Shown: one piece after another, positions 2,116 to 61,977 of the stretch
How positions within the stretch are numbered: the stretch's first letter is position 1
Layout: every line of letters begins with the position of its first letter
From: Microglena sp. YARC
Taxonomy: Eukaryota; Chlorophyta; Chlorophyceae; Chlamydomonadales; Chlamydomonadaceae
DNA length: 64,000 nt
Assembly: GCA_022414725.1 (NCBI GenBank)
Contig: CM039465.1
Location: forward strand, 20,784,613-20,848,612
Direction: 5' to 3'
The notes under the pieces: model-generated
What the model was told of the DNA's origin: nothing
The model's database searches: none
The model's input: the letters and a program-made list of their open reading frames with translations, nothing else
Position numbers and translations under genes: made by a program

Positions 2116-2193
2116 GACCTCTACCTTCTAGGTTCCAACCCTGATGATGAGGGCAAGATACTGAACTACGCTGAGGGAGGCTGCATTCGAAAG
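2116..2193 (+). CDS. Gene 1 exon 1 (first recognised)
   Basis: Acceptor ctgcccttcag precedes 26 open codons ([20 protein letters not shown]...) and a GTGGAT donor. Phase 0 at both ends matches exon 2. A short echo of its 3' edge (gaaaggtgg) recurs at 2235. It lacks the large ghost array that supports other exons, so it is less certain. Confidence 0.55.
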
Positions 2194-5100
2194 GTGGATT
2201 TGAAATTCGAATTTGAATTTGGATTTGAATTTGAAAGGTGGAAACTGAACTACACCAAGGGGCTGTTAGGAATTCGTTTCTAGACCCAACGCTCATAATG
2301 TTTTGTTTTTGCATTATGCTCCCCCCCCCCCACCCCCCCTCCTACCACCCCCTTCCATGCTTGTAAGGCTCATATCTACTGCACCAATTATAATGAGGGG
2401 GTCAAAGTATGAGGTATAGGGATCCTCTCAATGTGCTTTATCAATTTGTGGTCTTACATGGTTCGGGGGCTTACGTCCTCTTTGGGCACCGAATGGAGCG
2501 TACGGTACACGGTTCAGTTTGTCAATGCTTTTTCATGAGTGTTCTCAGGGCGAATTTTCAATGGTTGGTGGTGTCATTGTGTGTGACTAGTCGCTAAGTG
2601 TATGCGTGTGTTAGGGGGTAGGTGCTGTAAAATCTGCATTGGGCACCACATTGAGCGTACGGTACACGGTTCAGTCTATCAATGCTTTTTCATGAGTGCG
2701 CGCTTGGAAGTACACTGTACGGCACATGTGTGTGAGGCAGCTCTGACATGTTGATGGACGCTGCCATGGGAAACATAAAACACAAATCTGAAATAATTAA
2801 GAGACAGCTTATGACATGGTGACTGATGCTGCCGTGGAAAACATAAGCAAACTTCTGAAATAGATTATTATTCAAGATTAAAAAATAATTTCATTAAATT
2901 ATTAATTGTCTCTGATCGTGAGGCAGCTTATGACGCAGTGACTGACGCTGTCGTGGAAAACATAAGCAAACATCTGAAATATATTATTATTCAAAATTAA
3001 AATATTATAATAAATCATTCATTATATAATTATATTAAATCGTTAATTATACAATTATATTAAATCATTAATTGTCTCTGATCATGAGGCAGCTTATGAC
3101 GCGGTGACTGACGCTGTTGTGGAAAACATAAGCAAACATCTGACATATATTATTATTCAAAATTAAAATGTTATAATAAATCATTTATTATATAATTATA
3201 TTAAATCGTTAATTATACAATTATATTAAATCATTAATTGTCTCTGATCATGAGGCAGCTTATGACGCGGTGACTGACGCTGTTGTGGAAAACATAAGCA
3301 AAACTATGAATTATATTATTATTCAAAATTAACAAGTAATTACATTAAATCATTCATTGTCTCTGATCGTGAGGCAGCTTATGACGCAGTGACTGACGCT
3401 GTTGTGGGAAATATAAGCAAACATCTGAAATAATTAATTATTCGAAATTAAAAACAATTATATTAAATCATTCATTGTCTCTGATTGTGAGGCAGCTGAT
3501 GATGTGTTGAATGGTACTGTGGTGGAGTTAACACCATTACCACCACTACCACCACCACTCTCTCTCACACTCACAATCAAGTGTTACGTTACATGGCTGT
3601 AGGTCCTGCTCATCATTAGCTCCTCCCTCACTTACTCTGCGCCATGGTATGGCATGCTGACTGATGCTATATCATGGATAACAAATCTGAAACACACTTT
3701 TACGCACTTTTCTTCACCATTCCACTATGACATGGCAGTAGGTTCTGCTCATCACCAGCTGTTCCATCACTGACTGTGAGACATGGTATAGCATGCTGAC
3801 CGATGCTACCATGGAAAGCATAAACACAATCTGAAATAATGAGCACTTTTTTTCACCATTCTTCTATGACATGGCTGTAGGTTCTGCTCATCACCAGCAG
3901 TTCCGTCACTGACTGTGAGGCAGCGTATGACATGGTGACTGATGCTGTCATGGAAAACATAAAACACAACTGAAATAACTAACACTGTTCTTCACCATTC
4001 CACTATGATGGGGCTGTAGGTTATGCTCATCACCAGCTGTTCCATCCCTGACTGTGAGACAGCTTATGACATGCTGACTGATGCTGACATGGAAAACATA
4101 AAACACAAATCTGAAACAATTGAGAGGCAGCTTCTGACATGGTGACTGACACTGGCGTGGTAAACACAAGCATTTTTATTTACCATTCCATTATGACATG
4201 GCTGTAGGTTCTGCTCATCACCAGCTGTTCCATCACTGACTGTGAGGCATGGTATGGCATGCTGACTGCCGCCGTCATGGAAAACATACACGCAAATCTG
4301 AAATAATAAATTAATCAATATTACAAAAAATCTGATCGTGAGGCTGCTTATGACATGGTGAACGGCGCTGTCGTGGAGTGACCACCACCACCACTTTGAA
4401 ATGGCGGTAGGTCCTGCTCATCACCAGCTGTTCAATCACTGACTGTGAGGCAGCTAATGACATGGTGACCGATGCTGTCATGGAAAACATAAACAAAACA
4501 CTGAACTAATTAACACGTTTCTTCACCATTCCACTGTAACATGGCTGTAGGTTCTGCTCATCACCAGCTGTTCTGTCACTGACTGTGAGGCCGCTTATGA
4601 CATGGTGACTGATGCGGTCATGGAGTGCATCAAGAGAAGTGAGAATGGGGAAAATGTATCGCCCACCTTGCTTCACTCCATAGCCATTGGAAGCAAAGAC
4701 AACCTTTTCGAGTTAAGAGGTGGGGCAAAAACTGCAAATACAATACAAGTGAAAGTGTTTATTTTTTACCCACCCCACCCCCACCCCCACCAAACACCAC
4801 CACTACCTCCATTCACCCCCACCCCCACCCCCATCAAACAACACCACTACCTCCATTCATCCCCACCACCACCACCACCACCACCAAACACCACCACTAC
4901 CTCCATTTACCCCCAACCCCAATAAGAGGTGGGGCACAACAAGGTGGTTCAAATTCAAGTGACAGCGTTTTATTTTTTACCCCACCCCACCCACACCCAC
5001 ACCAAACACCACTACCTCCATTCACCCCCAACCCCAATAAGAGGTGTGGCAAATACAAGTGACAGTGTTTTATTTTTTACCCACCCCCACCCCCACCCCA

Positions 5101-5505
5101 TCCAAACAACACCACTGCCTCCATTCACCCCACCCACAAAACACCCACACCCCCATAACCACCACCACCACCACCGATACCGGCACCGCCGCCACCATCA
5201 TGATCACCACCATCATCACCACCACCACCACCATCATCACCATCACCATCATCACCACCACCACAATCAGCATCAGCATCTTCACAACCACCACCACCAC
5301 CATCATCATCACCATCATCAGCAGCAGCACCACCACCAACATCAGCAGCAGCACCACCACTACCATCATCACCATCACCACCAACACCACTACCACCATC
5401 GTCATCACCACCATCATCATCAACACCATCACCACCGCCATCATCACCATCACCACCATCACAACCAACGTCATCATCATCATCACCACCATCACCACCA
5501 CCACG

Positions 5506-5556
<51 letters not shown>

Positions 5557-5633
5557 GTCATAAGCATCATCATCATAAGCATCATAAGCATCATCATCAT
5601 AAGCATCATCATCATCATCATCATCACCATAAG

Positions 5634-5666
<33 letters not shown>

Positions 5667-5696
5667 AAGCATCATCATCATCATCATCATCATAAG

Positions 5697-5747
<51 letters not shown>

Positions 5748-5805
5748 AAGCATCATAAGCATCATCATCATAAGCATCATAAGCATCATCATTATCATCA
5801 TCATC

Positions 5806-5879
<74 letters not shown>

Positions 5880-6026
5880 AAGCATCATCATCATCATCAT
5901 AAGCATCATCACCATCACCATCATAAGCATCAGCATCATCATCATCATCATCATCATGATCATCATCATCATCATCATCATGATCATCATAAGCATCATC
6001 ATCATAAGCATCATAAGCATCATAAG

Positions 6027-6114
<88 letters not shown>

Positions 6115-6198
6115 GCCATCATCATCATCATCGCCATCATCATCATCATCGCCATCATCATTATCATCATCATCATCGCCATCATCATCATCATCATG

Positions 6199-6235
<37 letters not shown>

Positions 6236-9200
6236 CCACCACCACCACCACCACCACCATCACCACCACCACCACCACCACCACCACCACCACCACCACA
6301 ATCATCTTCTTCTCTGTCTTTTGACCTTCACAGAGGTTGCGCAGCAAAGCGGAGGCGGGGCACTGTTCTGCAACAGTGCGGATGACACTGATGTTTTGAA
6401 GCAGAGTAGCTTCATGTTGGATGTGATGACCAAACGGGGGTGAGTGAAGGGTGGTTAAGGGGGTGGAGGGTTGGGTTGGGGTGTGGGGGGGGGGGGGAAG
6501 GGGGGAAGGGGTTGGTGGTGTGTGTGAAGGGGGGAGATAAAGGGTGGGTTGGTGAGGGTAAGGGTGTGGAGGGTTTGTGTGTGTGTTTGGGGGGGTGGTT
6601 GGTGGGGGGGGTGGGGGTGGGGGGGGGGGAACTATTCTGCAGCAGTGTGGATGGCCCTGAAGTGTTGATGTAAAGATTTGTGTATGCGTCACCTGCAGAG
6701 TCAAAAAAAAGAAAAAACTTTAGGTGTGCCACCTGCAAAATCAAAAAAGAAGAAATAAGTTTTAAGCAAACAGCCTATGCATCACCTCCAGAATAAAAAG
6801 GAAAACAAATGTTTTTTTAACTGTCTACGCATCACGTATTTTGAACTGCCTATAAATCACCTGCTGATTCAAACAAAAAAGATTTTTTTGTTTGTTAACA
6901 GAAGTGCCTATGCTTCCCCTGTAGACTCAAACAAATAGTAAATTGTTGGTTTTGTTTAACTGTCTATGCATCACGTGCAGGGTCCTTCTTGAGCCCAGGT
7001 TGCTGGTCAACTCCAACTCCAGCCAACTTTTTAACTGTCTATGCATCACGTGCAGGGTCCTTCTTGAGCCCAGGTTGCTGGTCAACTCCAACTCCAGCCA
7101 ACTTTTTAACTGTCTATGCATCACGTGCAGGGTCCTTCTTGAGCCCAGGTTGTTGGTCAACTCCAACTCCAACCAACTTTTTAACTGTCTATGCATCACG
7201 TGCAGGGTCCTTCTTGATCCCAGGTTGTTGGTCAACTCCAACTCCAGCCAACTTTTTAACTGTCTATGCATCACGTGCAGGGTCCTTCTTGAGCCCAGGT
7301 TGTTGGTCAACTCCAACTCCAGCCAACTTTTTAACTGTCTATGCATCACGTGCAGGGTCCTTCTTGATCCCAGGTTGTTGGTCAACTCCAACTCCAGCCA
7401 ACTTTTTAACTGTCTATGCATCACGTGCAGGGTCCTTCTTGATCCCAGGTTGTTGGTCAACTCCAACTCCAGCCAACTTTTTAACTGTCTATGCATCACG
7501 TGCAGGGTCCTTCTTGATCCCAGGTTGTTGGTCAACTCCAACTCCAGCCAACTTTTTAACTGTCTATGCATCACGTGCAGGGTCCTTCTTGATCCCAGGT
7601 TGTTGGTCAACTCCAACTCCAGCCAACTTTTTAACTGTCTATGCATCACGTGCAGGGTCCTTCTTGATCCCAGGTTGTTGGTCAACTCCAACTCCAGCCA
7701 ACTTTTTAACTGTCTATGCATCACGTGCAGGGTCCTTCTTGAGCCCAGGTTGTTGGTCAACTCCAACTCCAGCCAACTTTTTAACTGTCTATGCATCACG
7801 TGCAGGGTCCTTCTTGATCCCAGGTTGTTGGTCAACTCCAACTCCAGCCAACTTTTTAACTGTCTATGCATCACGTGCAGGGTCCTTCTTGAGCCCAGGT
7901 TGTTGGTCAACTCCAACTCCAGCCAACTTTTTAACTGTCTATGCATCACGTGCAGGGTCCTTCTTGATCCAGGTTGTTGGTCAACTCCAACTCCAGCCAA
8001 CTTTTTAACTGTCTATGCATCACGTGCAGGGTCCTTCTTGATCCCAGGTTGTTGGTCAACTCCAACTCCAGCCAACTTTTTAACTGTCTATGCATCACGT
8101 GCAGGGTCCTTCTTGAGCCCAGGTTGTTGGTCAACTCCAACTCCAGCCAACTTTTTAACTGTCTATGCATCACGTGCAGGGTCCTTCTTGCCCAGGTTGT
8201 TGGTCAACTCCAACTCCAGCCAACTTTTTAACTGTCTATGCATCACGTGCAGGGTCCTTCTTGATCCCAGGTTGTTGGTCAACTCCAACTCCAGCCAACT
8301 TTTTAACTGTCTATGCATCACGTGCAGGGTCCTTCTTGAGCCCAGGTTGTTGGTCAACTCCAACTCCAGCCAACTTTTTAACTGTCTATGCATCACGTGC
8401 AGGGTCCTTCTTGAGCCCAGGTTGTTGGTCAACTCCAACTCCAGCCAACTTTTTAACTGTCTATGCATCACGTGCAGGGTCCTTCTTGATCCCAGGTTGT
8501 TGGTCAACTCCAACTCCAGCCAACTTTTTAACTGTCTATGCATCACGTGCAGGGTCCTTCTTGATCCCAGGTTGTTGGTCAACTCCAACTCCAGCCAACT
8601 TTTTAACTGTCTATGCATCACGTGCAGGGTCCTTCTTGATCCCAGGTTGTTGGTCAACTCCAACTCCAGCCAACTTTTTAACTGTCTATGCATCACGTGC
8701 AGGGTCCTTCTTGATCCCAGGTTGTTGGTCAACTCCAACTCCAGCCAACTTTTTAACTGTCTATGCATCACGTGCAGGGTCCTTCTTGAGCCCAGGTTGT
8801 TGGTCAACTCCAACTCCAGCCAACTTTTTAACTGTCTATGCATCACGTGCAGGGTCCTTCTTGAGCCCAGGTTGTTGGTCAACTCCAACTCCAGCCAACT
8901 TTTTAACTGTCTATGCATCACGTGCAGGGTCCTTCTTGAGCCCAGGTTGTTGGTCAACTCCAACTCCAGCCAACTTTTTAACTGTCTATGCATCACGTGC
9001 AGGGTCCTTCTTGATCCCAGGTTGTTGGTCAACTCCAACTCCAGCCAACTTTTTAACTGTCTATGCATCACGTGCAGGGTCCTTCTTGATCCCAGGTTGT
9101 TGGTCAACTCCAACTCCAGCCAACTTTTTAACTGTCTATGCATCACGTGCAGGGTCCTTCTTGATCCCAGGTTGTTGGTCAACTCCAACTCCAGCCAACT

Positions 9201-12200
9201 TTTTAACTGTCTATGCATCACGTGCAGGGTCCTTCTTGATCCCAGGTTGTTGGTCAACTCCAACTCCAGCCAACTTTTTAACTGTCTATGCATCACGTGC
9301 AGGGTCCTTCTTGATCCCAGGTTGTTGGTCAACTCCAACTCCAGCCAACTTTTTAACTGTCTATGCATCACGTGCAGGGTCCTTCTTGATCCCAGGTTGT
9401 TGGTCAACTCCAACTCCAGCCAACTTTTTAACTGTCTATGCATCACGTGCAGGGTCCTTCTTGATCCCAGGTTGTTGGTCAACTCCAACTCCAGCCAACT
9501 TTTTAACTGTCTATGCATCACGTGCAGGGTCCTTCTTGATCCCAGGTTGTTGGTCAACTCCAACTCCAGCCAACTTTTTAACTGTCTATGCATCACGTGC
9601 AGGGTCCTTCTTGAGCCCAGGTTGTTGGTCAACTCCAACTCCAGCCAACTTTTTTAACTGTCTATGCATCACGTGCAGGGTCCTTCTTGATCCCAGGTTG
9701 TTGGTCAACTCCAACTCCAGCCAACTTTTTAACTGTCTATGCATCACGTGCAGGGTCCTTCTTGATCCCAGGTTGTTGGTCAACTCCAACTCCAGCCAAC
9801 TTTTTAACTGTCTATGCATCACGTGCAGGGTCCTTCTTGATCCCAGGTTGTTGGTCAACTCCAACTCCAGCCAACTTTTTAACTGTCTATGCATCACGTG
9901 CAGGGTCCTTCTTGAGCCCAGGTTGTTGGTCAACTCCAACTCCAGCCAACTTTTTAACTGTCTATGCATCACGTGCAGGGTCCTTCTTGATCCCAGGTTG
10001 TTGGTCAACTCCAACTCCAGCCAACTTTTTAACTGTCTATGCATCACGTGCAGGGTCCTTCTTGAGCCCAGGTTGTTGGTCAACTCCAACTCCAGCCAAC
10101 TTTTTAACTGTCTATGCATCACGTGCAGGGTCCTTCTTGAGCCCAGGTTGTTGGTCAACTCCAACTCCAGCCAACTTTTTAACTGTCTATGCATCACGTG
10201 CAGGGTCCTTCTTGAGCCCAGGTTGTTGGTCAACTCCAACTCCAGCCAACTTTTTAACTGTCTATGCATCACGTGCAGGGTCCTTCTTGATCCCAGGTTG
10301 TTGGTCAACTCCAACTCCAGCCAACTTTTTAACTGTCTATGCATCACGTGCAGGGTCCTTCTTGAGCCCAGGTTGTTGGTCAACTCCAACTCCAGCCAAC
10401 TTTTTAACTGTCTATGCATCACGTGCAGGGTCCTTCTTGAGCCCAGGTTGTTGGTCAACTCCAACTCCAGCCAACTTTTTAACTGTCTATGCATCACGTG
10501 CAGGGTCCTTCTTGAGCCCAGGTTGTTGGTCAACTCCAACTCCAGCCAACTTTTTAAACTGTCTATGCATCACGTGCAGGGTCCTTCTTGAGCCCAGGTT
10601 GTTGGTCAACTCCAACTCCAGCCAACTTTTTTAACTGTCTATGCATCACGTGCAGGGTCCTTCTTGAGGCCCAGGTTGTTGGTCAACTCCAACTCCAGCC
10701 AACTTTTAACTGTCTATGCATCACGTGCAGGGTCCTTCTTGAGCCCAGGTTGTTGGTCAACTCCAACTCCAGCCAACTTTTTAACTGTCTATGCATCACG
10801 TGCAGGGTCCTTCTTGAGCCCAGGTTGTTGGTCAACTCCAACTCCAGCCAACTTTTTTAACTGTCTATGCATCACGTGCAGGGTCCTTCTTGAGCCCAGG
10901 TTGTTGGTCAACTCCAACTCCAGCCAACTTTTTAACTGTCTATGCATCACGTGCAGGGTCCTTCTTGAGCCCAGGTTGTTGGTCAACTCCAACTCCAGCC
11001 AACTTTTTTAACTGTCTATGCATCACGTGCAGGGTCCTTCTTGATCCCAGGTTGTTGGTCAACTCCAACTCCAGCCAACTTTTTAACTGTCTATGCATCA
11101 CGTGCAGGGTCCTTCTTGATCCCAGGTTGTTGGTCAACTCCAACTCCAGCCAACTTTTTAACTGTCTATGCATCACGTGCAGGGTCCTTCTTGATCCCAG
11201 GTTGTTGGTCAACTCCAACTCCAGCCAACTTTTTAACTGTCTATGCATCACGTGCAGGGTCCTTCTTGATCCCAGGTTGTTGGTCAACTCCAACTCCAGC
11301 CAACTTTTTAACTGTCTATGCATCACGTGCAGGGTCCTTCTTGATCCCAGGTTGTTGGTCAACTCCAACTCCAGCCAACTTTTTAACTGTCTATGCATCA
11401 CGTGCAGGGTCCTTCTTGATCCCAGGTTGTTGGTCAACTCCAACTCCAGCCAACTTTTTAACTGTCTATGCATCACGTGCAGGGTCCTTCTTGATCCCAG
11501 GTTGTTGGTCAACTCCAACTCCAGCCAACTTTTTAAACTGTCTATGCATCACGTGCAGGGTCCTTCTTGATCCCAGGTTGTTGGTCAACTCCAACTCCAG
11601 CCAACTTTTTAACTGTCTATGCATCACGTGCAGGGTCCTTCTTGAGCCCAGGTTGTTGGTCAACTCCAACTCCAGCCAACTTTTTAACTGTCTATGCATC
11701 ACGTGCAGGGTCCTTCTTGACCAGGTTGTTGGTCAACTCCAACTCCAGCCAACTTTTTAACTGTCTATGCATCACGTGCAGGGTCCTTCTTGAGCCCAGG
11801 TTGTTGGTCAACTCCAACTCCAGCCAACTTTTTAACTGTCTATGCATCACGTGCAGGGTCCTTCTTGAGCCCAGGTTGTTGGTCAACTCCAACTCCAGCC
11901 AACTTTTTTAAACTGTCTATGCATCACGTGCAGGGTCCTTCTTGAGCCCAGGTTGTTGGTCAACTCCAACTCCAGCCAACTTTTTAACTGTCTATGCATC
12001 ACGTGCAGGGTCCTTCTTGAGCCCAGGTTGTTGGTCAACTCCAACTCCAGCCAACTTTTTTAACTGTCTATGCATCACGTGCAGGGTCCTTCTTGAGCCC
12101 AGGTTGTTGGTCAACTCCAACTCCAGCCAACTTTTTAACTGTCTATGCATCACGTGCAGGGTCCTTCTTGATCCCAGGTTGTTGGTCAACTCCAACTCCA

Positions 12201-14558
12201 GCCAACTTTTTAAATGTCTATGCATCACGTGCAGGGTCCTTCTTGATCCCAGGTTGTTGGTCAACTCCAACTCCAGCCAACTTTTTAACTGTCTATGCAT
12301 CACGTGCAGGGTCCTTCTTGATCCCAGGTTGTTGGTCAACTCCAACTCCAGCCAACTTTTTAACTGTCTATGCATCACGTGCAGGGTCCTTCTTGATCCC
12401 AGGTTGTTGGTCAACTCCAACTCCAGCCAACTTTTTAACTGTCTATGCATCACGTGCAGGGTCCTTCATGAGCCCAGGTTGTTGGTCAACTCCAACTCCA
12501 GCCAACTTTTTAACTGTCTATGCATCACGTGCAGGGTCCTTCTTGAGCCCAGGTTGTTGGTCAACTCCCGAGCACACTTTGTCAGGGGTAACCTGCCACC
12601 AGTTCTGTCCCCATCACAACAGTCAACGGTAGGTATATTGTTTTCGTTGTGTTGCAATATTTGCTTGGCAAAGTCAACCTCTATGTATCCTATATAACCC
12701 CTATATATAACTTATGTATGTCCTATAAAACCTATATATAACCTATATGTCCTATGTAACCCCTATATAACCCCTATACAACATATGTATGTCATACATG
12801 TACTATATAACCCCTATATAACCTAGATAAAGCCTATACATGTCCTATATAACCTTTATGTCCTATATAACCCCTATATAACATATGTATGTCATACATG
12901 TACTATATAACCCCTATATAACCTAGATAAAGCCTATACATGTCCTATATAACCTTTATGTCCTATATAACCCCTATATAACATATGTATGTCATACATG
13001 TACTATATAACCTAGATTAAGCCTATACATGTCCTATATAACCTGTATGTCCTATATAACCCCTATACGTCCCCTATATATCCCCCTAGATAACCATTAT
13101 ATAACCTAGATGTCCTATTTAATTCCTATACAACCTATTTATAACATAAATATGTCCTATATAATGCCTATATAACCTATTAAAGGTTGGGCAAGTCTCT
13201 TTAGCATATTTGGATACCCCTGGACTAGACAAATAGATGTTTAGCTCGGGGGTGACAGTATTAAAAATGATCATCATCGCCATCTATATTTGGTGAAAAA
13301 CCTTAAGACTAACCCCCAAACCCTAAACCCCAAACCCAAACTCTAAACTGGTAACGGTTGCTTTCTTCGGAGGACTCCATCACAGTTGCGGGTCGTGTGA
13401 AAAAAGGGAAAAACGATTTTCAATTATATATACCATCACCTCTGTTTGGTGAAAACCCTAAACCCCAAACCCTAAATAGGTAACAGTTGCGTTCTTTGGA
13501 GACGGCATCTCTTCAGATGACTACATCACAGTTGTGGGTCATGTCCTGCAACCAATACATTTTGGGGTATACAAAAACATTATTTACCATGAGCATCATC
13601 TCTGTTCGTTGGAAGTCCGAAACCCTAAACCCTAAACCTCAAACCCCAAAACATACACAGGTAACGGTTGCATTCTTCGGAGACGGCATCTCTTCGGAAG
13701 ACTCTATCACAGTTGTGGGTCGTGTCCCAGGCGCTCCCAAGAGCATCGACCCTCGCTCCACAGATAGAGACCCGGTGTTTATCTATCCTCGAATCACGGC
13801 ACCGAACCCGCCCTTCCAGCTGATCCCACCCATCTCCAAGCCTTCAAGTGGTGCGTATCCTTTGGTTTGGCTTGGCTTGGCTTGGCTTGGCTTGGCTTGG
13901 CTTGTGGGTTTCCTTGTGGGTTGTCTTGGTTTGCGTTGCGTTGAGTTGGGTTGTTGGTTAGGGGGGGAATCAACATGTTCCAGGATGTATGAAAGGGTAA
14001 GCAAGTTGGTGTTGTATCTTTGTATCATTTGCGTCTGTTGTGCTCTTTATGTTTAATTGTGTGATGGAAAGAGGTGGTGTTGGTTTGTTTGGCTTGGCTT
14101 GGTTAGGGTGGCTTGGCTCAGCTTGGTTTGGGTGGCTTGGCTTGGCTTGGCTTGGTTTGGGTGGCTTGGCTTGGCTTGGCTTGGCTTGACCTGCATTGTA
14201 TTGAGTTGAGTTGGTGTTTGTGTTGTGGCCCAGTGGACCCATGGAAGGTCCTTCTAACTCCAACTATATTTCTATATCCCCCCCCCACACACACACAAAC
14301 ACACACACACACAAAACACACACACAAACACGCTCTCACACACACACACGCACGCACGCACGCACGCCGCACGCACGCACGCACGCACACACACATGCAC
14401 ACACACACACACACGCACACACACACCACAGACATCCCCCCCCCCACACACACACCATCACCCCCCACACACACACCACACACATCCCCCCCACACACAT
14501 ACACACACACACACACACCACACACATCCCCCCACCACCACCACCACCACCACCACAC

Positions 14559-14614
<56 letters not shown>

Positions 14615-14630
14615 ACACACACACATCCCC

Positions 14631-14661
<31 letters not shown>

Positions 14662-17286
14662 ACCACTCACATCCCCCCACCCCCACCACACACACACACA
14701 CACCACTCACATCCCCCCCCCTCCCCCACCCCCCCCCACACACACACACATCACCACCACCACCCTGACGGGCCAATGAGAACTGCCTGCAGGTACTGTA
14801 ATTTATATTGGTGATAATGTTGATGAATACTGGTGATAATGTTCCCGTGGGCCACACCCTCTCGGCTATCCACTCATCTAAGCTTTGGCCTATCAATCTC
14901 TAACTCTCTGTATACGTATGTACGGTGGCTTGCAGCGACTGGGGATAGTGTTCCCAAGGGTCTATTCGACTTTACATAATTATACATTTTAAATAATCGT
15001 AAACTTTATACATCACTATCACGCACGCGATTTTTTTTCTTCACTTTTTCACTTTTTCACTTCTTGGGTTGCCTCAAATACGAGGCATGACAGGACCCAA
15101 CCGACCCAACCGAAACCAACCTTGGAAGCCACACATCTCCTCAAAAACTGCGCTGCTCGAGAAATTAGACAGATGCATGGGCTCGCATTTGCACGCTCTT
15201 TCATCAGCATCCAATTCGATTTTTTTTCGTGTAGGTCGACTTGTCTCTGAACCGCACTACCATGTACAGCTTGAAATCTCTAACTTTCTGTTTATGTATG
15301 TGTGGTGGCTTGCAGTGTCTGGCGGTGGTGTTCCCGTGGGCCACACCCTCTCGGCCATCCACTCATCTAAGCTTTGGCCTATCAATCTCTAACTTTCTGT
15401 TTATGTATGTGTGGTGGCTTGCAGTGACTGGCGATGGTGTTCCCGTGGGTCTATTCAACTTTATATAACTATACATGGGTCTATGCAACTGTAAATAAGC
15501 TTTGGCCTGCAAATTTCTAACTTTCTGTATACGTGTGTACGGTGCCTTGCAGTGACTGGCGATGGTGTTCCCGTGGGCCACATCCTCTCGGCCATCCATG
15601 CAATGAGTGCCATCTCCTCAGCCCTTCAGTCAGACGCCTCCCACATCACCACCCCATATTCCAAGGCAGATGAGGATGCGGATGAGGATGGGGGTGAGGA
15701 GGACACCCAAGGGGGCAAGGGTCTCACAGCATCTGAGAAAGCGGCAAACAAAAATCATGCTCAAGCAGGTGCTACAGGGGCAAACAGAAATCAGGCCCAA
15801 TCAGATGCTAAAGCGGCAACCAGGAAGCAGGCCCAAGCCGATGATGAAGCGGAAACCAGGAAGCAGGCCCAAGCCGATGATGAAGCGGCAACCAGGAAGC
15901 AGGCCCAAGCAGCTGCTAAAGAGGCATCTGTCTTGGCACTTGCCTTGGCCCACAACCTGCCCATGCACCTGGTAGACTTCACTGTGGTCCCTGCTGGGAA
16001 GGACCCAGAGGGCCTGGCTTCAAGGATGAGCGTGTCGGTCAGTTCTCGTGTGTAGTGTTATGTTTAATGTGTTATGTGTTGTGGTATGTGTTATGTGTCA
16101 TGTGTTATGTGTAGTGGTATGTGTAATGTTTTATGTGTTATGTGTATTGTTATGTGTAATGTGTTTTGTGTTATGTGTAATGTGTTATGTTTAATGTGTA
16201 ATGTTTTATGTGTTCTGTGTAATGTGTAATGTGTTATGTGTAGTGTTATGTGCAGTGTTATGTGTTATGACTCATGTGTTATGTGTAGTGGCCACCACCA
16301 CCATATGATCATCACCATCACTAAAACCACCATCATATGATCACCATCACCACCACCACCACCACATGATCATCACCATCACCATCACTACCACCACCTC
16401 CATATGATCATCACCATCACCACCACCATATAAATACACTTGCTACAGGTGCCCACCACCACCATATGATCACCACCACCACCACCACCATCACCGCCAC
16501 CATATGACCACCACCATATGATCATCACCATCACCACCACCATATCAATGCACTTGCTACAGGTGCCCACCTGCTCCATGACTAAGCCGCCCCCTGATTC
16601 TGAGGAAGAATTTACATCAGTCGATCCTCCGTCGGAACGGCCAGGTAACACTTTGGCATTCTAGGAAGTGGAGGGGGGAGAGGGGGGGAGAAGAGGGAGC
16701 CAAGTATAACCACAGCCTGAAGAAGTAATAAGTAATTTATTGAGTGTGTGACTTATGTGATGTATGCTTGTATGTATGTTACAGTCCAGGGGTAGGTTAA
16801 ATAGGCTAAAGGGACTTGCCCAACCGTGTAGGAAGGGCTTAAAAAGAAAAAGCTCTGATGAACTGAAACCCACACAATCGTGGGAGTTCGAAAGCTCTTC
16901 GTGATGGAAATACTTAATGGAAGGAAATGCTTAATACAAATTATAAAAAATGCGATAAGAACCACACAATTAAATAAATCATCCCAGATGAGATGATGAT
17001 TTAATTATATTGTAGAATTGGCCTGCCCCTGGACTGTAAAATACATACATACATACATACATACATACATACATACATACATACATACATACACACACAC
17101 ATACATACATACACACATACGTACAAGCATACATTACAGGTTCTAAATTCCCTCAATGTACCTTCACTGTGTATATATGCATTTATTTTTGAACATGACG
17201 CACAAATTGAAATATAGTTGAATTTAAGTTTAAAAATTGATTTAAATAAATAAAAAATTGTAAAATAAAAAAGTATTATAATAATA

Positions 17287-17340
<54 letters not shown>

Positions 17341-18733: not shown

Positions 18734-18826
<93 letters not shown>

Positions 18827-40049: not shown

Positions 40050-40083
<34 letters not shown>

Positions 40084-43000: not shown

Positions 43001-43122
43001 GGCTGAGCGGGAATTGGCTGGGCGGGAAGTCGGTTAAGTCGGTTACGCGATGACACCACCACGACCACTGACCGCGACCACGACCACGACCGCCATGATT
43101 CTTTTTATATATATATATATAC

Positions 43123-43167
<45 letters not shown>

Positions 43168-48379: not shown

Positions 48380-48410
<31 letters not shown>

Positions 48411-51400
48411 CGGGAATATCCAGACTGGGGGAATTGTGGGTAGCCGGGAGATCAGTGTATGGTAGGTGTGGGTGAGTGGGTGGATGGGGGGGGGGGGGGG
48501 GGGGGGGGGGGGGTTCAACTGGAATATCCAGACTGGGTACAGGAGCATGGGGGGGAAATGTGGGTAGCCGGGGGATCAGTGTATGGGTATGTATGTGTGT
48601 GTGGGGGGTGGGGTGGGGGGCAACGGTATATCCAGACTGGGTACAGGAGCATGGGGGAGAAATATGGTAGCCGGGAGATCAGTGTATGAGTAGGTATGTG
48701 TGTCTGTGTGTGTGTGTGCGTGTGTGTGTGTGTGTGGGGGGGGGGGGGTCAACTGGAATATCCAGACTGGGTACAGGAGCATGGGGGGAAATGTGGGTAG
48801 CCGGGGGATCAGTGTATGGGTATGTATGTGTGTGTGGGTGGGTGGGGTGGGGGGCAACGGGAATATCCAGACTGGGTACAGGAGCATGGGGGAGAAATAT
48901 GGGTAGCCGGGAGATCAGTGTATGAGTAGGTATGTGTGTCTGTGAGTGTGTGTGCGTGGTGGTGTGTGGGTGGGGGGGGGGGGGGTCAACGGGAATATCC
49001 AGACTGGGTAAGGAGCATGGGGGGGAAATGTGGGTAGCCGGGAGATCAGTGTATGGGTATGTATGTGTGTGTGTGGTGTGGGTGGGTGGGTGTGTTTGTG
49101 GGGTGTGGGGGTGTTGTGGGGTGTGGGGTGTGGGTGTGTGTATGTTGTGTGGGTGTGTGGGGTGGGTGTGTGGTGTGGGGGTGGGGTGTGGTGTGGTACC
49201 GGTGGGTGGGTGGGTGGTGTGTGGGTGTGGTGTGTGTGTGGTCGTGTGGTGTGTGTGGTGGTGTGGGTGTGGTGTGGGTGTGTGGGGTGTGGGTGTGGGT
49301 GTGGGTGGGTGTGGGTGTGGTGTGTGTGGGTGTGGTGTGTGTGGGTGTGGGTGTGGGTGTGGGTGTGGGTGTGGGTGTGGGTGTGGGTGTGGGTGTGTGT
49401 GGGTGTGGGGTGTGGTTGGGTGTGGTGTGGGTGTGGTGTGGGTGTGGGTGTGGGTGTGGGTGTGGGTGTGGGTGTGGGGGGGTCAACGGGAATGTCCAGA
49501 CTGGGTATAGGATCATGGGGGGCGAATATGGGTAGACTGAGGATCAGTGTATGGCATGCTATAAAGGGAGATATCAGATATGAGATCAGATGAGGCATGC
49601 AGATGGATAAGGTATGGTACCAAGGGAGATATGAGATAAAATGAGGCATGCAGATGGATAAGTCATTGGGATTAATTTCACTGAATAGGGAGTAGGTGGG
49701 AGTAGGTGGGAGATGTCAGCAATGAGGTAAGACCAGGTATGATCTTCGGCATAAAACAAACGTACCAAGCAATATCCTTTGTCCATTTAGTCGCCCTTGC
49801 GGTCTCCGTCCATCAGCTCTTCTTGTCTTCCTCTGTCTTTTTACCTTGGTCACTAAGGGCTAGGTTTTATCAGATGTGCCATAACCTAATTCCCCCCTTG
49901 TAAAACAAACCTCATACCTGTCACACCCCGTGGGCAGAATGCGTTGCTTGTGCTTCACCTCGTCTAGCAATTCCAACCCAGACTGCTCTCTGGGCGCCCA
50001 GCATGCCCTGATATGATCATCAACAATGGAGAGGGCCTCCTTCTCGGCCTGGGGTATCAGTGATCAGTGCACAATCACTGCTTTCAGTAATAGCAGTATG
50101 CTTGTAGGGAGGAGGGTGGCTTCAATGATGACAGTGGCCTGGGGTATCAGTGATCAGTGCACAATCACTGCTTTCAGTAATAGCAGTATGCTTGTAGGGA
50201 GGAGGGTGGCTTCAATGATGACAGTGGCCTGGGGTATCAGTGATCAGTGCACAATCACTGCTTTCAGTAATAGCAGTATGCTTGTTGGGAGGAGGGTGAC
50301 TTCAATGATTAAAGTGGCCTGGGGTATCAGTGATCAGTGCACGATCACTGGTTTCAGTTATAGCAGTGTGCTTGTTGGGAAGAGTGTGACTTCAATGCTG
50401 AAAGTGGCGTTGGCGACGCAAACGTGTTTGGCAATGCTGGAGTGGCTAGACTACATAAGTAGCGGGGACTTTCATATTTTACATATCACTACAGTTGAAA
50501 AACAAGTCTGGACTAAGAGGAGAGCCTCAACAACATTTTCTCAACCATATGATTCCCCAGTCAATCATTCATTTGATTATCATTCATATGGTTGTATCGT
50601 CATTCATTTGATCATCATTCATATGGTTGTATCATCATTCATATGGTTGTATCATCATTCACTTGATCACTATTCATCTAATCTGATCATCATCCATATG
50701 ATTTGATCATCATTCATTTGATCAACATTCATCTAATCTGATCATCATCCATATGATTTGATCATCATCCATATGATTTGATCACTATTCATCTAATTTG
50801 ATCATCATCCATATGATTTGATCATCATCCATATGATTTGATCATCATCCATATGATTTCCCAGCCAATCATTCATGTTTTGAACAAAGGAGAAGCTGCT
50901 TTCAGTTTTCTGTTTCTCACAACAGTCATCATGGAGACAATGCAATGCAATTTGTGCAATACAAAGTAATGATAACGCCTGGCGGGACCGTGGAATGAAG
51001 GGAGCCCTGTCTTACGGCGGTAGAGAATGGGCTGCTACTTTACCTGGAGAGAGCAACCATGGCGGTTGACTGCGACCGTGAACACTAAAGCGCACCGTAG
51101 AATTTTGAACCCCGCACCTACTCGTTTTGACGTGCTCTACCATTGAGCCAGTCGTCAAAACGGGACCCCGTGCAATACAATGTGTGACGCTGCTAGCGTA
51201 CATGGGCTTGAGCTACAGACTAAATTTCAGGGGGCAGTTCAGGGTAGCTCAAAGTACATTAAAATTTTAAATAAGTACATCAAAAACAGGTTAAACTTGA
51301 TTTAAAATACATAAAATAAAAGTACATAAATACCAGATATACAATAGCTGTGTGGGCAGGGGGAACTGACATTGTCTTCTTCTTTTATTTGCTGTTATGC

Positions 51401-55734: not shown

Positions 55735-55945
55735 CCCCAAGCTCTACTACCCCCTCAAAGGGGCGTGGTCTTCAGTTACGGAGAGGGAACATAATCCCCA
55801 ACCAAATACGGAGGGGGGAAATATTCCCTGACCAAAGAAGAGCCAAAGTCACTGGTCTCCACAGAGCTCACGCTATCCCCATGCACTACTACCCCCTCGG
55901 AGAGGCCTGTTCATTGGCTGTCATACAAAGTACAATCTTCACCCT
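55735..55945 (-). pseudogene. Ghost of the whole kinase terminal exon
   Basis: 'ctactaccccctc.gagg', 'agagccaaagtca', 'ccaaccaaatac' and 'cattggctgtcatacaaag' occur in the same order as in 56957-57109 but with changes and gaps. A complete, decayed exon duplicate downstream of the real one. Confidence 0.65.
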
Positions 55946-56956
55946 ACATCCCCCAAAGTCGAGGTACAAAGTATGACCCACAACCTAGATGAGAGAGTCC
56001 TTGTCATCGGCTGTCATACAAAGTACGACCTACAACCTAGATCCCCCAAAGTTGAGGCACAAAGTACGACCTACAACCTAGACCCCCCAAATTTGAGGCA
56101 CAAAGTACGACCTAGATGATAGAGGCCTGGTCATTGGCTGTCATACAAAGTACGACCTACAACCTAGATCTCTTAAAGTCAAGGTACTAAGTACGACCTA
56201 CAACCTAGATCCCCCAAAGTCGAGGTACAATGTATGACCTACAACCTAGATCCCCCAAAGTTGAGGTACAATGTATGACCTACAACCTAGATGAGACAGG
56301 CCTGGTCATTGGCTGTCATACTATGTACGACCTTCAACCTAGATCCCCCAAAGTTGAGGTACAATGTATGACCTACAACCTAGATGAGAGAGGCCTGGTC
56401 ATTGGCTGTCATACAAAGTACGACCTACAACCTAGATCCCCCTAAGTTGAGGTACAATGTATGACCTACAACCTAGATGAGAGAGGCCTGGTCATTGGCT
56501 GTCATACAAAGTACGACCTACAACCTAGATCCCCCAAAGTTGAGGTACAATGTATGACCTACAACCTAGATGAGAGAGGCCTGGTCATTGGCTGTCATAC
56601 AAAGTACGACCGAAAACCTAGATCCCCCAAAGTTGAGGTACAATGTATGACCTACAGCCTAGATGAGAGAGGCCTGGTCATTGGCTGTCATACAAAGTAC
56701 GACCTACAACCTAGATCCCCCTAAGTTGAGGTACAATGTATGACCTACAACCTAGATGAGAGAGGCCTGGTCATTGGTTGTCATACAAAGTACGACCGAA
56801 AACCTAGATCCCCCAAAGTTGAGGTACAATGTATGACCTACAACCTAGATGAGAGAGGCCTGGTCATTGGCTGTCATAAAAAGTACGACCGAAAACCTAG
56901 ATCCCCCAAAGTTGAGGTACAATGTATGACCTACAACCTAGATGAGAGAGGCCTGG

Positions 56957-57109
56957 TCATTGGCTGTCATACAAAGTCGGAACATACTCCCCAACCAGAG
57001 CAGAGCCAAAGTCATAAGTTTCCTCAGCGACACCTACGTTACCCCGAAGCGATACTACCCCCTCCGATGGGTAATAGCCACTGCCATCAGATCCGCTGCC
57101 CTTGCGCTC
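56957..57109 (-). CDS. Kinase terminal exon
   Basis: Acceptor caaccttctcag, then ERKGSGSDGSGYYPSEGVVS and LRGNVGVAEETYDFGSALVG, ending TLYDSQ and TGA. Phase 0. Its 3' end is the unit multiplied downstream. Confidence 0.78.
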   Translation of the reverse strand, partial: ERKGSGSDGSGYYPSEGVVSLRGNVGVAEETYDFGSALVGEYVPTLYDSQ

Positions 57110-57676
57110 CTGAGAAGGTTGAGACAAATGTGTGTTAGGGTGTGTGTTGGTGTGTGGGTGTGGGTGGTGGTGTGGTGTGGTGTGTGGGGGGGTGGGGGCG
57201 GGGTAGGTTGGGGGGGTTGGGGGTTGGGGGTTGGGGGGGGGGGGGGGTTGAGAGGAAGCAACAGTAAGAGGAGACAAGAGATATGGAAGAATGATTATAG
57301 AAAGCAGGGACTAGTTTCGTCAAATAGGCATCATCAGGCGGCAGTTAAGTATCATCAGACTAGCTCCCCTTGCGCACCTGGGTGGGGTGACAAAAAATAT
57401 GTTTTCAACGGGTTCAATGTGTTTAATGTGTTCAATGTGTTAAATGCTTTCAATGAGTTCATTGTGTTTACCACTACCACCACCACCACCACAAGCAGCT
57501 CCACTAACACCAACACCGGCCTTACCATTGGTTCAGTGTAAGAGGGAGAGCTAGATGGGACACTCGGAGGTAATGTACATCCAGAGTCAATCAAGGGGGC
57601 TGGCTTGCCAGCTGAATCCTTAATCATATCCCTCAGGCGAGTGACCACATGCTCCATGGTAGGCCTGGGGGAGGGG

Positions 57677-57707
<31 letters not shown>

Positions 57708-58040
57708 GGGGGGGGGGCGTATGTTTGTGTATCCTTCAGGCGAGTGACCACATGCTCCATGGTAGGCCTGGGGGGAGGGGGTATTGTGTGTGTGTGTGTG
57801 TGTGTGTGTGTGGGGGGGGGGGGTATGTGTGTGTATCCTTCAGACAAGTGAACACATGCTCCATGGTAGGCCTGGGGGAGGGGGATCAGGATATGTATGT
57901 ATGTATGTGTGTGTGTGTGTGGTGTGTGTGTGTGGGTGGGTGGGGGGGGGAGTGTGTGTATGTATCCTACAGGCGAGTGAGCACATGCTCCATGGTTGGC
58001 CTGCATTGAGGTCTCATGTGGTGCTTCTATGTTCTACAAA

Positions 58041-58086
<46 letters not shown>

Positions 58087-59467
58087 CCTGTCTGTATGCA
58101 GGGTGTGTGTGCGTGTGGTGGTGGTGGTGGTGGTGGTAGTGGTGGTGGGCAGGAGGACAGATTTTGGACCGGATCATCAATACGGTGTTACAAATGTCTA
58201 CCCACCTGTCCTCAGCATCCTTGGACCAGCATTCCTGGGTCAGTTGCTTGAACTCTGCTGGTGTTGATGATGGGAATGCGGGCCTCTTGCCTTGCTGCGC
58301 CACCTGATGACCAAGGAGAGCCTTCGGGGTACCCCTGATAGTGAGGGATGAGACAGAAGGTAAGTACAGGATGCAATGGAAGGTCACAGACTTGAGAAGA
58401 GGGGGTGGGGGCAAAGAACACGTCCAGTCCTGCATCTATATCGAATGGGGGCCTCTTGCCTTGCTGCGCCACCTGATGACCAAGGAGCGCCTTCGGGGTA
58501 CACCTGATCGTGAGGGATGAGACAGAAGGTAAGTACAGGATGCAATGGAAGGTCGCAGACTTGAGAAGAGGGGGTGGGGGTGAAGAACGAGTCCAGTCCT
58601 ACGTCAATATCAAATCTTGCCTTGCTGCACCACTGAGACAGAAGGTAAGTTCAGGATGCCACGTACGTCATGTTTAAAAACATGACATTCTGTTTTACAG
58701 TATCATTGAATTATGTCATTGTTTGACAATATCATTGAAATTATAGACTTTCGCAGAGGTGAGAGAATGCCCTAGAGGAGTCCTGCAACCTATGCAGCCG
58801 TGCAAGCAATCCAGCCAGCCATGCAAGCAATCTAGCTAGCCACCGAGACCGATTGACCATACACAGTTGATAGCTCGAAACAGGCAGACGGCAGATAACG
58901 ATATGGAATACATTTGGAAACATGAAGGGCGGGCAGTTTAGATAGGGAGCGCAGGAAGGGCCGGCCAGGGTGAAGAAGCACAGAGAAGCGCAGCTGCGAA
59001 TTCGTTTTTCAGTTCACCTGAGGCGGTCAGCCGGTAATTGAAATCTTTTGTGCGGTCGGAAGTCGAAGGCAGGGCGAGATTGCGAGCAAAATGCGCTGAA
59101 TCATGATAAAGCTCACAGGGGGAGCGACCAAATTGGTCCCTATACATTTTGGTTCAAACTTCGGCAGTACAGTACGGCAGGCAGTTGTCCGTGCCCGCCC
59201 CCTGCCCCCGCCCCCCTATACACGAACGAACCTGTATTTTTACATATATATATAGATGTATGTATATATGTACGTATGTATGTATGTATGTATGCATGTG
59301 TGTATGTATGTATGTATGTATGTATGTATGTGTGTATGCATGTGTGTATGTATGTATGTATGTATGTATGTATGTATGTATGTATGCATGTATGTATCTA
59401 GTACGGTAGCCTGTGTGGCGGTGGCCACACCTACTCACACCTACTCACACCTACTGTCACTCTCAAG

Positions 59468-59507
<40 letters not shown>

Positions 59508-61977
59508 CATAGTACGGTGCCCGTTTGGCCTTTGGCCACACCTATTTGGGGCTGGTTACATAAAGGTTTACACTTGAAGCCCCCCTCATTCACACACCAC
59601 CACCACCAAACCATTAACCGCCCCCTCCCCCTCCCCTCCCGTTGGCCACACCTGTTTTGGGCTGGGTTGCAAAGAGGTTTTCTCTGCAGTGCATGCAACT
59701 TAAAACATGGACGGACGCATGTCCCTTTAATCCCCCCCCCCACCCACCCACCCACCCACCCAACCATGTACCCCCACCCACAAACATACTCCCTTACTCT
59801 TCCTGACATATTTCCTGACTCCATCCCTTATTCCCTTCCCCCACCACAGCCATCCCACCAGCCCCCACCCTCTCCCCACTCTCCTCCCTCCCCTCCCTCA
59901 TACACGCACCCACCAGCTCACTCATACTCCATATCTGCCTCCCTCCACTTCAGCTGTGGGCTTTGCCATAGCTGAAAGGCATACGGGACGAAGAGCATCG
60001 ACAACGTTTGCACATCGTCCGACTCCGCCAAAAGCATCGGACCTGCTTCCCTGCCACCTCAGCTGTGATCGATAGTCGACCTCACTGAAAAAGCTGAACC
60101 TGCGCAATCGCAACTGTACATAGCCAATCTTCTTCTTAGGGAGCATGTATTCAGGTCGGCCGAAGAACAATCCTGTTCACCGCAACTGCTCCCGATGTCA
60201 ACACAATCTGAGACTTGGAAACATTGCTAGGTACATCCATTCAACTTGCCGCGTGCTCGCTGTAGCACAATTCACAGCGACGACATATTTCTCGTTGCAG
60301 TGGGAAGAAGTTGCAGTCAAGTTGCTGATTTTAGATGTTCAGTCAAGTTAGGGCGAGAATGCTCAGCGAGATTTTTCATTCGGTCAACTTTGATGCGTAA
60401 TTGCTATGGCACAATGCGGAGCGACATGTTTCTCAATGCAGTGGGTAGAATTTGCAGTCAAGTTTGTGACATGGGATGGATGCAATTCGGACATTTCTGA
60501 CAGGTCGTCTGACTCACCACATCACCTCCCGTTGTGCGCAGCGACAGGTCTCTTAATGCAAGGGAAAGGTCTTGCAGAGATGCAGGGGGAAAAGCTTGTA
60601 GGAAGACAAACTGCAGCGCTACCGAAATCAGGTGGATGAACCCAGGCGGGAAAAGGAGAAATCGGGCGGGATGCGCAACAGATAGAATACGCATGAGGCG
60701 AAGGTTGCACAAGGCAGAATTCACAGGAGGCCAAATCAGGCAGAAGTTGAAGCAGGAGGGATTAAAAGCGGGAATTGGCTGGGCGGGAAGTCGGTTAAGT
60801 CGGTTACGCGATGACACGACCACGACCACGACCACGACCGCCGTGATTTCTTTATATATATAGATGTATGTATGTATGTAAGTCTGTCTGTCAGTCAGTC
60901 AGTCAGTCAGTCAGTCAGTCTGTCTGTATGCATGTATGTATTATACAGTCTAGGGGTAGGCCAGATAGGCTAAAGGGACTTGCCCAACCGTGACAGGAAG
61001 GGATAAAAAAAGCATTGATTAAGTGAATCCCAAACAATCCCTTTACCAACTGGGGCCCTGAGTTCATGCTACAGTGATGATTTCATTCTGGAATTATAAT
61101 TTAATTGTCATCCCATATAAAATTTGTGAGTGACGTTTCGTGGGGAGGAGTGCGTGATCACCAGAAACAAGTCCTAGTCAGCGACGGGGAAAATTGGCGG
61201 AAAATTGGCGGAGAGTGTTGGCAATCGGAACAACAGGTGGCAACCGAATGGAGCAGACCGAAGCCAGTTAGTTATGAGACGGTTGGCTGACGTGTCTAGA
61301 GAGCGTGATCAACAGCATTGCATTGCATAGATAGATAGATACCGTACTCTAAAATTGACACGGAAATTTAGCGTTTTTTAAATTTGACGTTTCTTTCTGG
61401 CGACGACATCTGAACAGGTACAGTGGTGCATGGAACTGAGCACCCCTCGAACCCAGGATTGACAAATCTGCGGGACGGTTTCGCCCGGCCTTGCACACTG
61501 CGCAACCCGTTTTTGATCCCACAGAACCCCAGTTTAGCCCCTTTGCGTCCCCCTGAAGAAAAACGTCAATTTTTTGACGTTTTATAAACGTCAAATTTCT
61601 GTGTCAGCACGGTACTCCCCATATAATATATAATCCCCACATACTCCCAATCCGGTTTTTAGGCACCTCCTAGACACTCTTTAGGCCATGTGTGGATCTC
61701 CCTATATACCCCCTGTACGGGTATCCCCATATACCCCCTTTACAGTCTTTAAGCACTAAGACACTCCCTAGATACTTCATAAATACTACTAGCAGAAAAC
61801 AGCTTTGGTGGCCGTACCGCAACTGTATATGGGGGTCGACTGTAACATGTCTACACACAACACATAGGACACTCACTTGTAAGGAGCCCCCCCTGTGTAG
61901 AGCTCCCACAAAGTGATTCCATAAGCGTACACGTCCCCTGCCTTGCTCATGCGCCCATTTGTGAGAAGCTCAGGCGA
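56957..61977 (-). CDS. Protein kinase, C-terminal part (TKL-like), 5' incomplete
   Basis: Four exons (61977-61877, 58334-58206, 57664-57526, 57109-56957) join in phase: 522 nt, 173 residues plus TGA. Motifs in order: SPELL of the P+1 loop (APE equivalent), DVYAYGITLWELYTG (subdomain IX, invariant Asp), GTPKALLGHQVAQQGKRPAF, ECWSKDAEDRPTMEHVVTRL (C-W and invariant Arg of subdomain XI), then a 90-residue Ser/Gly-rich tail. D-V-Y-(A/S)-(F/Y)-G and C-W-x-x-D-x-x-x-R-P are typical of tyrosine-kinase-like Ser/Thr kinases, abundant in green algae. The nucleotide-binding lobe, HRD and DFG motifs lie upstream and were not found before 64000. Confidence 0.85.
57130..57250. repeat. GT/GGGTTGG-rich tract
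   Basis: (GTGTGG)n then poly-G; on the minus strand it forms the C-rich tract before the terminal exon acceptor. Confidence 0.9.
57526..57664 (-). CDS. Kinase exon (subdomain XI end)
   Basis: Reads (R)PTMEHVVTRLRDMIKDSAGK then PAPLIDSGCTLPPSVPSSSP and SYTEPM. Acceptor C-rich...ccccag, donor GTAAGG. Confidence 0.9.
57665..58000 (-). repeat. Ghost copies of the kinase PTMEHVVTRL acceptor edge (3)
   Basis: Minus-strand 'ccccag|GCCTACCATGGAGCATGTGGTCACTCGCCTG' recurs at 57736-57770, 57838-57870 and 57965-58000 (variants GTTCACTTGTCTG, GCTCACTCGCCTG). Each follows a (GT)n/poly-G spacer of about 60-90 bp. Confidence 0.94.
58035..58145. repeat. (CTGT)n and (GGT)n microsatellites
   Basis: CTGT tetranucleotides 58040-58095; GGT trinucleotides 58115-58148. 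Confidence 0.95.
58206..58334 (-). CDS. Kinase exon (subdomains X-XI)
   Basis: Reads (K)GTPKALLGHQVAQQGKRPAF then PSSTPAEFKQLTQECWSKDA and EDR. Acceptor cctcactatcag, donor GTGGGT. The junction with exon 61877-61977 makes YK|GTPKALLGHQV. Confidence 0.92.
58335..58645 (-). repeat. Ghost copies of the kinase ALLGHQVAQQG exon start (2)
   Basis: Minus-strand 'catcaggtggcgcagcaaggcaagaggcccccatt' recurs at 58445-58515 with its own upstream 'cttctgtctcatccctcacgatcag'. A shorter one is at 58612-58650. About 175-bp units. Confidence 0.92.
58725..59230. other. Unassigned intron sequence
   Basis: No gene recognised; short (AGCCAGCCATGCAAGCAATC) duplication at 58795-58840. Confidence 0.4.
59240..59400. 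repeat. (TATG)n/(TGTA)n microsatellite
   Basis: Tetranucleotide repeat into which copy 3 of the 1.5-kb element appears inserted. Confidence 0.95.
59399..60850 (-). mobile_element. 1.5-kb Helitron-like element, copy 3
   Basis: Same hairpin/CTAG end (59399-59430; palindrome slightly changed, GTGTGGCGGTGGCCACAC) and same far end 'gaccgccgtgatttcttta'. Somewhat more diverged, poly-C tract expanded at 59470-59503. It sits in the kinase intron. Confidence 0.6.
60870..60945. repeat. (TATG)n, (GTCA)n and (GTCT)n microsatellites
   Basis: Tetranucleotide runs linking the 1.5-kb element to the next interspersed repeat. Confidence 0.93.
60946..61085 (+). repeat. CATA-linked short interspersed repeat, full copy
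   Basis: 'acagtctaggggtaggccagataggctaaagggacttgcccaaccgtgacaggaaggg' through 'ccctgagttcatgctacagtgatgattt'. Confidence 0.87.
61150..61290 (+). repeat. Short interspersed repeat related to 45455-45535 and 18300-18400
   Basis: 'ggcggagagtgttggcaatcgg.acaacaggtggcaac' and 'gaagccagttagttatgagacggttggctg' recur at the other two places (18300 inverted). Confidence 0.7.
61877..61977 (-). CDS. Kinase exon (subdomains VIII-IX)
   Basis: Reads SPELLTNGRMSKAGDVYAYG then ITLWELYTGGAPYK. Acceptor ataacacctgcag, donor GTGAGT. First base is codon position one. Confidence 0.93.

Follow-up and report, generated by a model that had tools for sequence, protein, structure and literature searches.

Tandem copies of exon edges beside splice sites and stop codons in three Microglena genes, with an excess at 3' splice sites

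In a 64,000-nucleotide (nt) stretch of DNA from the chlorophyte Microglena sp. YARC (GenBank assembly GCA_022414725.1, contig CM039465.1, positions 20,784,613 to 20,848,612; the whole stretch is called the window below), we found tandem copies of exon edges within the adjoining introns and downstream of stop codons. The copies occurred at two kinds of coding edge, splice borders and stop codons. Whole-exon copies were absent among 26 exons (the largest copied share of an exon was 0.58), donors were copied at the baseline rate, and acceptors were copied in excess. Ongoing local tandem duplication across non-coding DNA, filtered by selection on coding sequence, probably explains the copies. What a neutral model leaves unexplained is the excess at acceptors.

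Three spliced genes (A, B and C) on both strands of the window were rebuilt from reading-frame continuity, and their 26 exons provided 3 stop-codon edges and 49 splice borders (26 acceptors and 23 donors). The acceptors include those of exons C1, A1 and B1, and the introns before these exons lie outside the 23 introns counted here. A splice border was scored as locally copied when the 30-nt segment centred on it, of complex sequence, had a same-strand copy with at least 22/30 ungapped identity at a distance of 25–3000 nt. By this test, 20 of the 49 splice borders were copied (15/26 acceptors and 5/23 donors). An earlier note on this DNA had described almost all borders as reiterated, with around 20 affected among some 25 examined; its count of 20 was right, but the denominator is 49, about twice as large. 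The same 15 acceptors and 5 donors were obtained at four further settings with segments of 24–40 nt, and 20-nt segments gave 12 acceptors and 4 donors at 16/20 identity and 11 and 4 at 17/20. A gapped search found copies at 15/26 acceptors, 6/23 donors (one with just 6 nt of exon) and 3/3 stop codons, that is, at 24 of 52 edges. In the 30-nt test, 3/3 stop codons passed before the complexity filter and 2/3 after it. Junction-spanning tandem copies in three genes on both strands, as the note had proposed, occur beyond chance.

Between 1 and 74 extra copies were found per edge, in agreement with the earlier figure of 1 to about 74; the highest number was at the C4 acceptor, where the unit is 75 base pairs (bp). 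The copies listed by the gapped search were 70–99% identical to the true edge, and the nearest copies lay 57–268 nt from the border. The exon overhang in the copies reached 67 nt, with per-edge medians of 6–66 nt. Coverage of splice borders dropped with depth into the exon and was about zero by 65–70 nt from the border. Acceptor copies lay upstream and donor copies downstream of the true site, as had been noted before, with only the non-coding side of each edge searched. Decay of the copies with distance, another earlier claim, was not general: seven edges carried more than three copies, and their rank correlations between identity and distance were -0.36, -0.0, -0.42, 0.0, +0.71, +0.6 and -0.53. 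Head-to-tail arrays occupied the introns. The copies at each edge were as follows (positions in the window).

2922..4560, + strand, C2 acceptor copies: 13 copies, 140–1667 nt upstream, up to 44 nt of exon
6955..12534, + strand, C4 acceptor array with a 75-bp unit: 74 extra copies, about 34 nt of exon, AG retained in 74/74
13340..13546, + strand, C5 acceptor copies: 2 copies, up to 67 nt of exon, AG retained in 1/2
14840..15476, + strand, C6 acceptor copies: 3 copies, up to 46 nt of exon
16340..16465, + strand, C7 acceptor copy: 114 nt upstream, 17 nt of exon
17365..17507, + strand, C8 acceptor copies: 2 copies, up to 28 nt of exon
18945..19050, + strand, C9 acceptor copy: 62 nt of exon
19379..20318, + strand, C9 donor copies: downstream, up to 39 nt of exon, GC retained in 7/8
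21097..21497, + strand, C10 donor copies: 3 copies downstream, 55 nt of exon
27862..28553, + strand, C12 acceptor array: 9 copies counted, about 34 nt of exon, the farthest 4864 nt off, near 23689
28882..29009, + strand, C12 donor copy: 44 nt of exon
29328..29452, + strand, C13 donor copies with an 88-bp unit: 2 copies, 28 nt of exon
29717..29750, + strand, C14 acceptor copy: 100 nt upstream, 26 nt of exon
35578..35840, + strand, C15 coding parts including the stop-codon edge: downstream of the stop, 1 stop-edge copy by gapped search, edge of low complexity in the 30-nt test
38587..38635, - strand, gene A stop-codon edge copy: 1 copy downstream, 39 nt of coding sequence
39580..39685, - strand, A6 acceptor copies: 2 copies, up to 25 nt of exon
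45959..46030, - strand, A3 donor copy: 50 nt of exon, used as an exon end in the EukProt model P0002
46365..46863, - strand, A3 acceptor array: 6 copies counted, AG retained in 2/6
48427..49554, - strand, A2 acceptor array: 6 copies counted, 11 nt of exon
55900..56943, - strand, gene B stop-codon array with a 93-bp unit: downstream, 10 copies of the last 21 coding nt and the stop codon
57352..57396, - strand, B4 acceptor copy: 268 nt upstream, 25 nt of exon
57730..58003, - strand, B3 acceptor copies: 38 nt of exon, 2 copies by gapped search and a third match in the self-comparison
58443..58633, - strand, B2 acceptor copy: 61 nt of exon

Several repeats lay close to these edges. A 90-bp array (50046–50408) stops within a few nt of the A1 acceptor and includes too little exon to count as border-spanning. 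A copy from the interior of exon C3 is present in the following intron (6620–6668) without a splice border. A 63-nt copy with 94% identity (33544–33612) derives from near the end of exon C14 but does not quite reach the donor. The C14 donor and this copy are separated by an array of about 144 units of 20 bp (30256–33140).

Under our explanation, the copies would be fossils of local tandem duplications that arise throughout non-coding DNA, some of which would have expanded to minisatellites. A duplication running from an intron or 3' flank into the adjoining exon would leave one exon edge intact and place a truncated copy in the non-coding DNA beside it. It would be tolerated while the intact edge stays in use, with splicing presumably running correctly past the copies, whereas whole-exon duplications, or out-of-frame ones within an exon, would be purged by selection. 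As a result, introns would lengthen and copies would gather outside stop codons as well as splice sites. The polarity of the copies is a matter of geometry: after duplication across one edge, a single copy remains connected to the remainder of the exon, and that copy is by definition the true one. Exon C6 contains a 36-bp repeat of five units (15738–15926), which, being a multiple of three, keeps the frame. The outward stop-edge copies, the lack of whole-exon copies, the fall-off with exon depth and the in-frame C6 repeat are expected from purifying selection on random duplication. Because outward copies were present at 3/3 stop-codon edges, splicing is not required. The earlier idea of repeated duplication of edge-straddling segments, with inflation of introns, was supported, and the note's interpretation as a whole was supported in part: most of the copies can be explained without a process that recognizes splice junctions, given the stop-codon edges, the donor counts below and the geometric origin of the polarity.

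To compare borders with other positions, the locally duplicated share of complex segments was determined. It was 0.54–0.55 within introns at distances above 100 nt from any border, 0.41 at borders, 0.33–0.34 in intergenic DNA and 0.18 in mid-exon. Since large arrays inflate the per-position intron figure, a family-level count was used, in which the intron rate with each repeat family counted once was 0.23. Against this null, 20 copied borders were seen versus 10.9 expected (P 0.0014), with the excess confined to acceptors; the donors (5/23 seen versus 5.1 expected) were at baseline. In a steady-state neutral simulation (random duplications with exon-breaking ones removed; 8 runs per setting, at settings of our choice), the border rate matched the family-level intron rate (0.25 vs 0.27 and 0.18 vs 0.15). 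When most border duplications were made harmful, the rates were 0.06 at borders and 0.14 in introns.

The following points weigh against random duplication and selection as the explanation. By the family-level null, 15/26 acceptors were copied versus 5.8 expected (P 0.0002), about 2.6 times baseline, and by a per-intron baseline 15 were seen versus 6.8/23 expected (P 8e-5). Copies were present at the acceptor alone in 14 introns, at the donor alone in 4, at both in 1 and at neither in 4 (p 0.031), and introns C7/C8, C8/C9 and B1/B2 were otherwise repeat-poor, yet their acceptors were duplicated. In growth-only simulations (4 runs each), borders reached 0.49–0.64 and introns 0.60–0.71; as borders were lower than introns in this set, the observed acceptor rate exceeds both simulations. 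The stop-codon edges in the window number only three, one of them in low-complexity sequence. The earlier note had proposed comparing junctions with random intron segments: junctions were not enriched per position (0.41 vs 0.54), whereas acceptors were enriched by family. A weaker form of its proposal survives, namely an excess at 3' splice sites.

Acceptors and donors also differed when compared directly (Fisher p 0.019), and the acceptor excess spanned about 150–300 nt. The family-level share was 0.55 within 150 nt of acceptors versus 0.23 within 150 nt of donors, and in the same zones without border-linked families it was 0.42 on the acceptor side versus 0.18 on the donor side. The acceptor ends were somewhat richer in low-complexity sequence (share within 100 nt, 0.385 vs 0.296 at donor ends). 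The family-level acceptor excess, its extent and this richness in low-complexity sequence favor a process linked to 3' splice sites, for example an abnormal DNA structure at the polypyrimidine tract or breaks coupled to transcription or splicing, that would actively duplicate segments around acceptors while the donor and stop copies are background. We consider such a process unlikely: the samples are small (26 and 23), the acceptor excess loses significance if the true baseline is 0.45 (p 0.135), borders lie below introns per position, and stop-codon edges are copied too. The earlier note had gone further, proposing a process that recognizes borders at splice sites of both kinds. The total of 20/49 copied borders against 10.9 by the family-level null speaks for it, but the donors were at baseline and the stop-codon edges were copied in 3/3 cases; we therefore rejected this process, which is highly improbable. 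On top of the baseline of local duplication, 3' splice-site ends are duplicated in excess, perhaps via slippage or template switching at pyrimidine- or simple-repeat-rich intron ends, and a mutational hotspot at the pyrimidine-rich ends is the cause of the acceptor bias that we infer and prefer. As a tentative extension, which we think rather unlikely, intron 3' ends may be a tandem-duplication hotspot that constantly generates additional acceptors with some exon upstream of the real ones (74 in one intron), so that the spliceosome must pick the real acceptor among near-identical copies by exon context.

It is also conceivable that the copies are functional, either as alternative exons or as decoy acceptors under selection. 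In their favor, AG or GT was mostly retained: splice dinucleotides were mismatched in 8/132 cases versus 625/5022 in the aligned intron part, although the alignments were anchored there and were biased towards retention. On the other hand, when the exon parts of the copies (152 copies, 24 edges) were compared with the true exon, differences affected 15%, 16% and 21% of distinct sites at codon positions 1, 2 and 3 (p 0.07), and the trend was in the expected direction in 13/23 families (p 0.68), so that there was no sign of strong coding constraint. Pooled mismatches were 0.186 at third positions versus 0.096 and 0.087, a figure that was not relied on, as sites shared within large families were recounted. 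AG was lost in 4/6 A3 copies. The EukProt predicted protein P0002 ends exon A3 at the donor copy and drops an SNSFSAE segment, whereas four aligned plant RAD51D homologues carry NSFS or HSFS, indicating that the intact A3 exon is the real one. Coding alternative exons were rejected on the basis of the weak codon-position signal, and a function for the copies in general is very unlikely. An assembly artefact from collapsed or repeated reads is the least probable account. Copies that are 70–99% identical are mostly not read duplicates, and the frames were intact over 26 exons.

Tandem repeats across exon-intron boundaries, called mirages, have been described in amphioxus globin genes, Adh3, troponin C and PGBD5; in the excerpts available from these reports, they occur at both exon ends with units of 10–160 bp, are reported to be harmless to splicing, show length instability, and in many copies retain AG or GT (PMC3087553, PMC3902484). 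As in those excerpts, the repeats here lie at the 3' and 5' ends of introns and combine a splice site with part of the exon, and many retain AG or GT. Repeats spanned 20/49 borders, and both intron ends were represented (15 acceptors and 5 donors). The distances to the nearest copies here (57–268 nt) overlap the mirage unit sizes, some being longer. Unlike the mirages as described there, the present copies belong to another lineage, affect 20/49 borders in one 64-kb window and include one 74-copy array; stop-codon edges are copied, and acceptors are favored over donors. Judging from the sequence and its open frames, and from what the excerpts describe, this case probably works like an amphioxus mirage. 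No report of boundary arrays of this kind outside amphioxus was found in the open-licence literature searched. The copies are a dense new occurrence of an already known phenomenon, to which a 3' splice-site bias is added.

Other reports describe how introns are gained when exonic AGGT segments undergo tandem genomic duplication (PMC3443670) and, in Cryptococcus, repeat expansion with tandem duplication giving new introns (PMC2395259). The likeness to AGGT duplication is that short tandem duplications within genes create splice sites; the difference is that the copies here sit inside existing introns. Ordinary intronic minisatellites likewise form head-to-tail arrays, and the arrays here additionally contain part of a coding exon together with a splice site or stop codon. 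Introner-like mobile introns carry the same element at many introns. Here, among the filtered self-comparison matches listed, the exon-edge copy families adjoined their own border.

The window DNA is eukaryotic nuclear, with a mean GC content (guanine plus cytosine) of about 47%. Cymbomonas differs from it, with a published GC content of 51–52% and introns averaging 297 nt (PMC10675990, PMC5741210), whereas the land-plant RAD51D homologues of gene A and a likeness of the kinase to algal ones would fit a green alga. All three frames run open to a single terminal stop. The C2 and C13 acceptors were set to in-frame AG sites, as the first-chosen sites broke the frame, and exon C15 was added to gene C. 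Borders were GT-AG throughout, with the sole exception of a GC donor at exon C9 (19211). The 23 introns sum to 45,468 nt versus 4,281 nt of exon (91% intron; median intron 1,578 nt), which bears out the earlier statement that introns make up over 90% of the gene. P0002 is one fused model with the same kinase and RAD51D residues as genes B and A, and so derives from this genome or one very close to it. The gene C protein had no match in Pfam, PDB or a protein search. ARAGORN detected no tRNA in the window, and Rfam at gathering scores gave 0 matches there. The gene models were as follows (aa, amino acids; E, expectation value).

2116..35516, + strand, gene C, unknown protein: 15 exons, 935 aa to the stop, from frame continuity; model starts at C1, 5' end beyond
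Exons C1–C8, + strand: 2116–2193, 4590–4719, 6334–6439, 12535–12628, 13661–13850, 15553–16037, 16563–16644, 17591–17948
Exons C9–C15, + strand: 19089–19211, 20927–21022, 22601–22748, 28554–28780, 29062–29266, 29823–29990, 35199–35516
38722..50048, - strand, gene A, RAD51D-like: 7 exons, 316 aa to the stop; PF08423, E 7e-16; plant homologues; model starts at A1, 5' end beyond
Exons of gene A, - strand: A1 49918–50048, A2 48223–48316, A3 46247–46363, A4 44844–44988, A5 43215–43457, A6 39344–39492, A7 38722–38793 (stop)
56957..61977, - strand, gene B, protein-kinase C-terminus: 4 exons, 173 aa to the stop; PF07714, E 1e-19; 5' part beyond the model
Exons of gene B, - strand: B1 61877–61977, B2 58206–58334, B3 57526–57664, B4 56957–57109 (stop)

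Other repeats were present in the window. A dispersed element of about 80 nt gave 16 matches on both strands (e.g., 60925–61010, 16761–16845, 47160–47238 and 46144–46224), 76–96% identical to the query copy (self excluded); by its look it resembles a short interspersed nuclear element, and it also occurs within introns but includes no exon edge. A 1.6-kb repeat occurs twice in tandem at 39991–43170 (93%) and a third time in a gene B intron at 59351–60877 (84–85%). Two pairs of 98.8% identity, 23730–24137/24484–24891 and 24241–24488/27356–27603, are interleaved in one intron and are perhaps a recent nested mobile element.

Exon-edge copies may mislead gene finders, as the public model of the A3 locus mistook a copy for an exon end. 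Stop-codon edges provide a built-in control for splice-specific ideas. The case shows that past tandem duplications can be preserved as fossils on the non-coding side of exon edges, probably in a lineage far from amphioxus. If the acceptor excess is true genome-wide, the genome would offer natural constructs, each carrying between 1 and 74 duplicated 3' splice sites, in which acceptor choice by the spliceosome could be tested.

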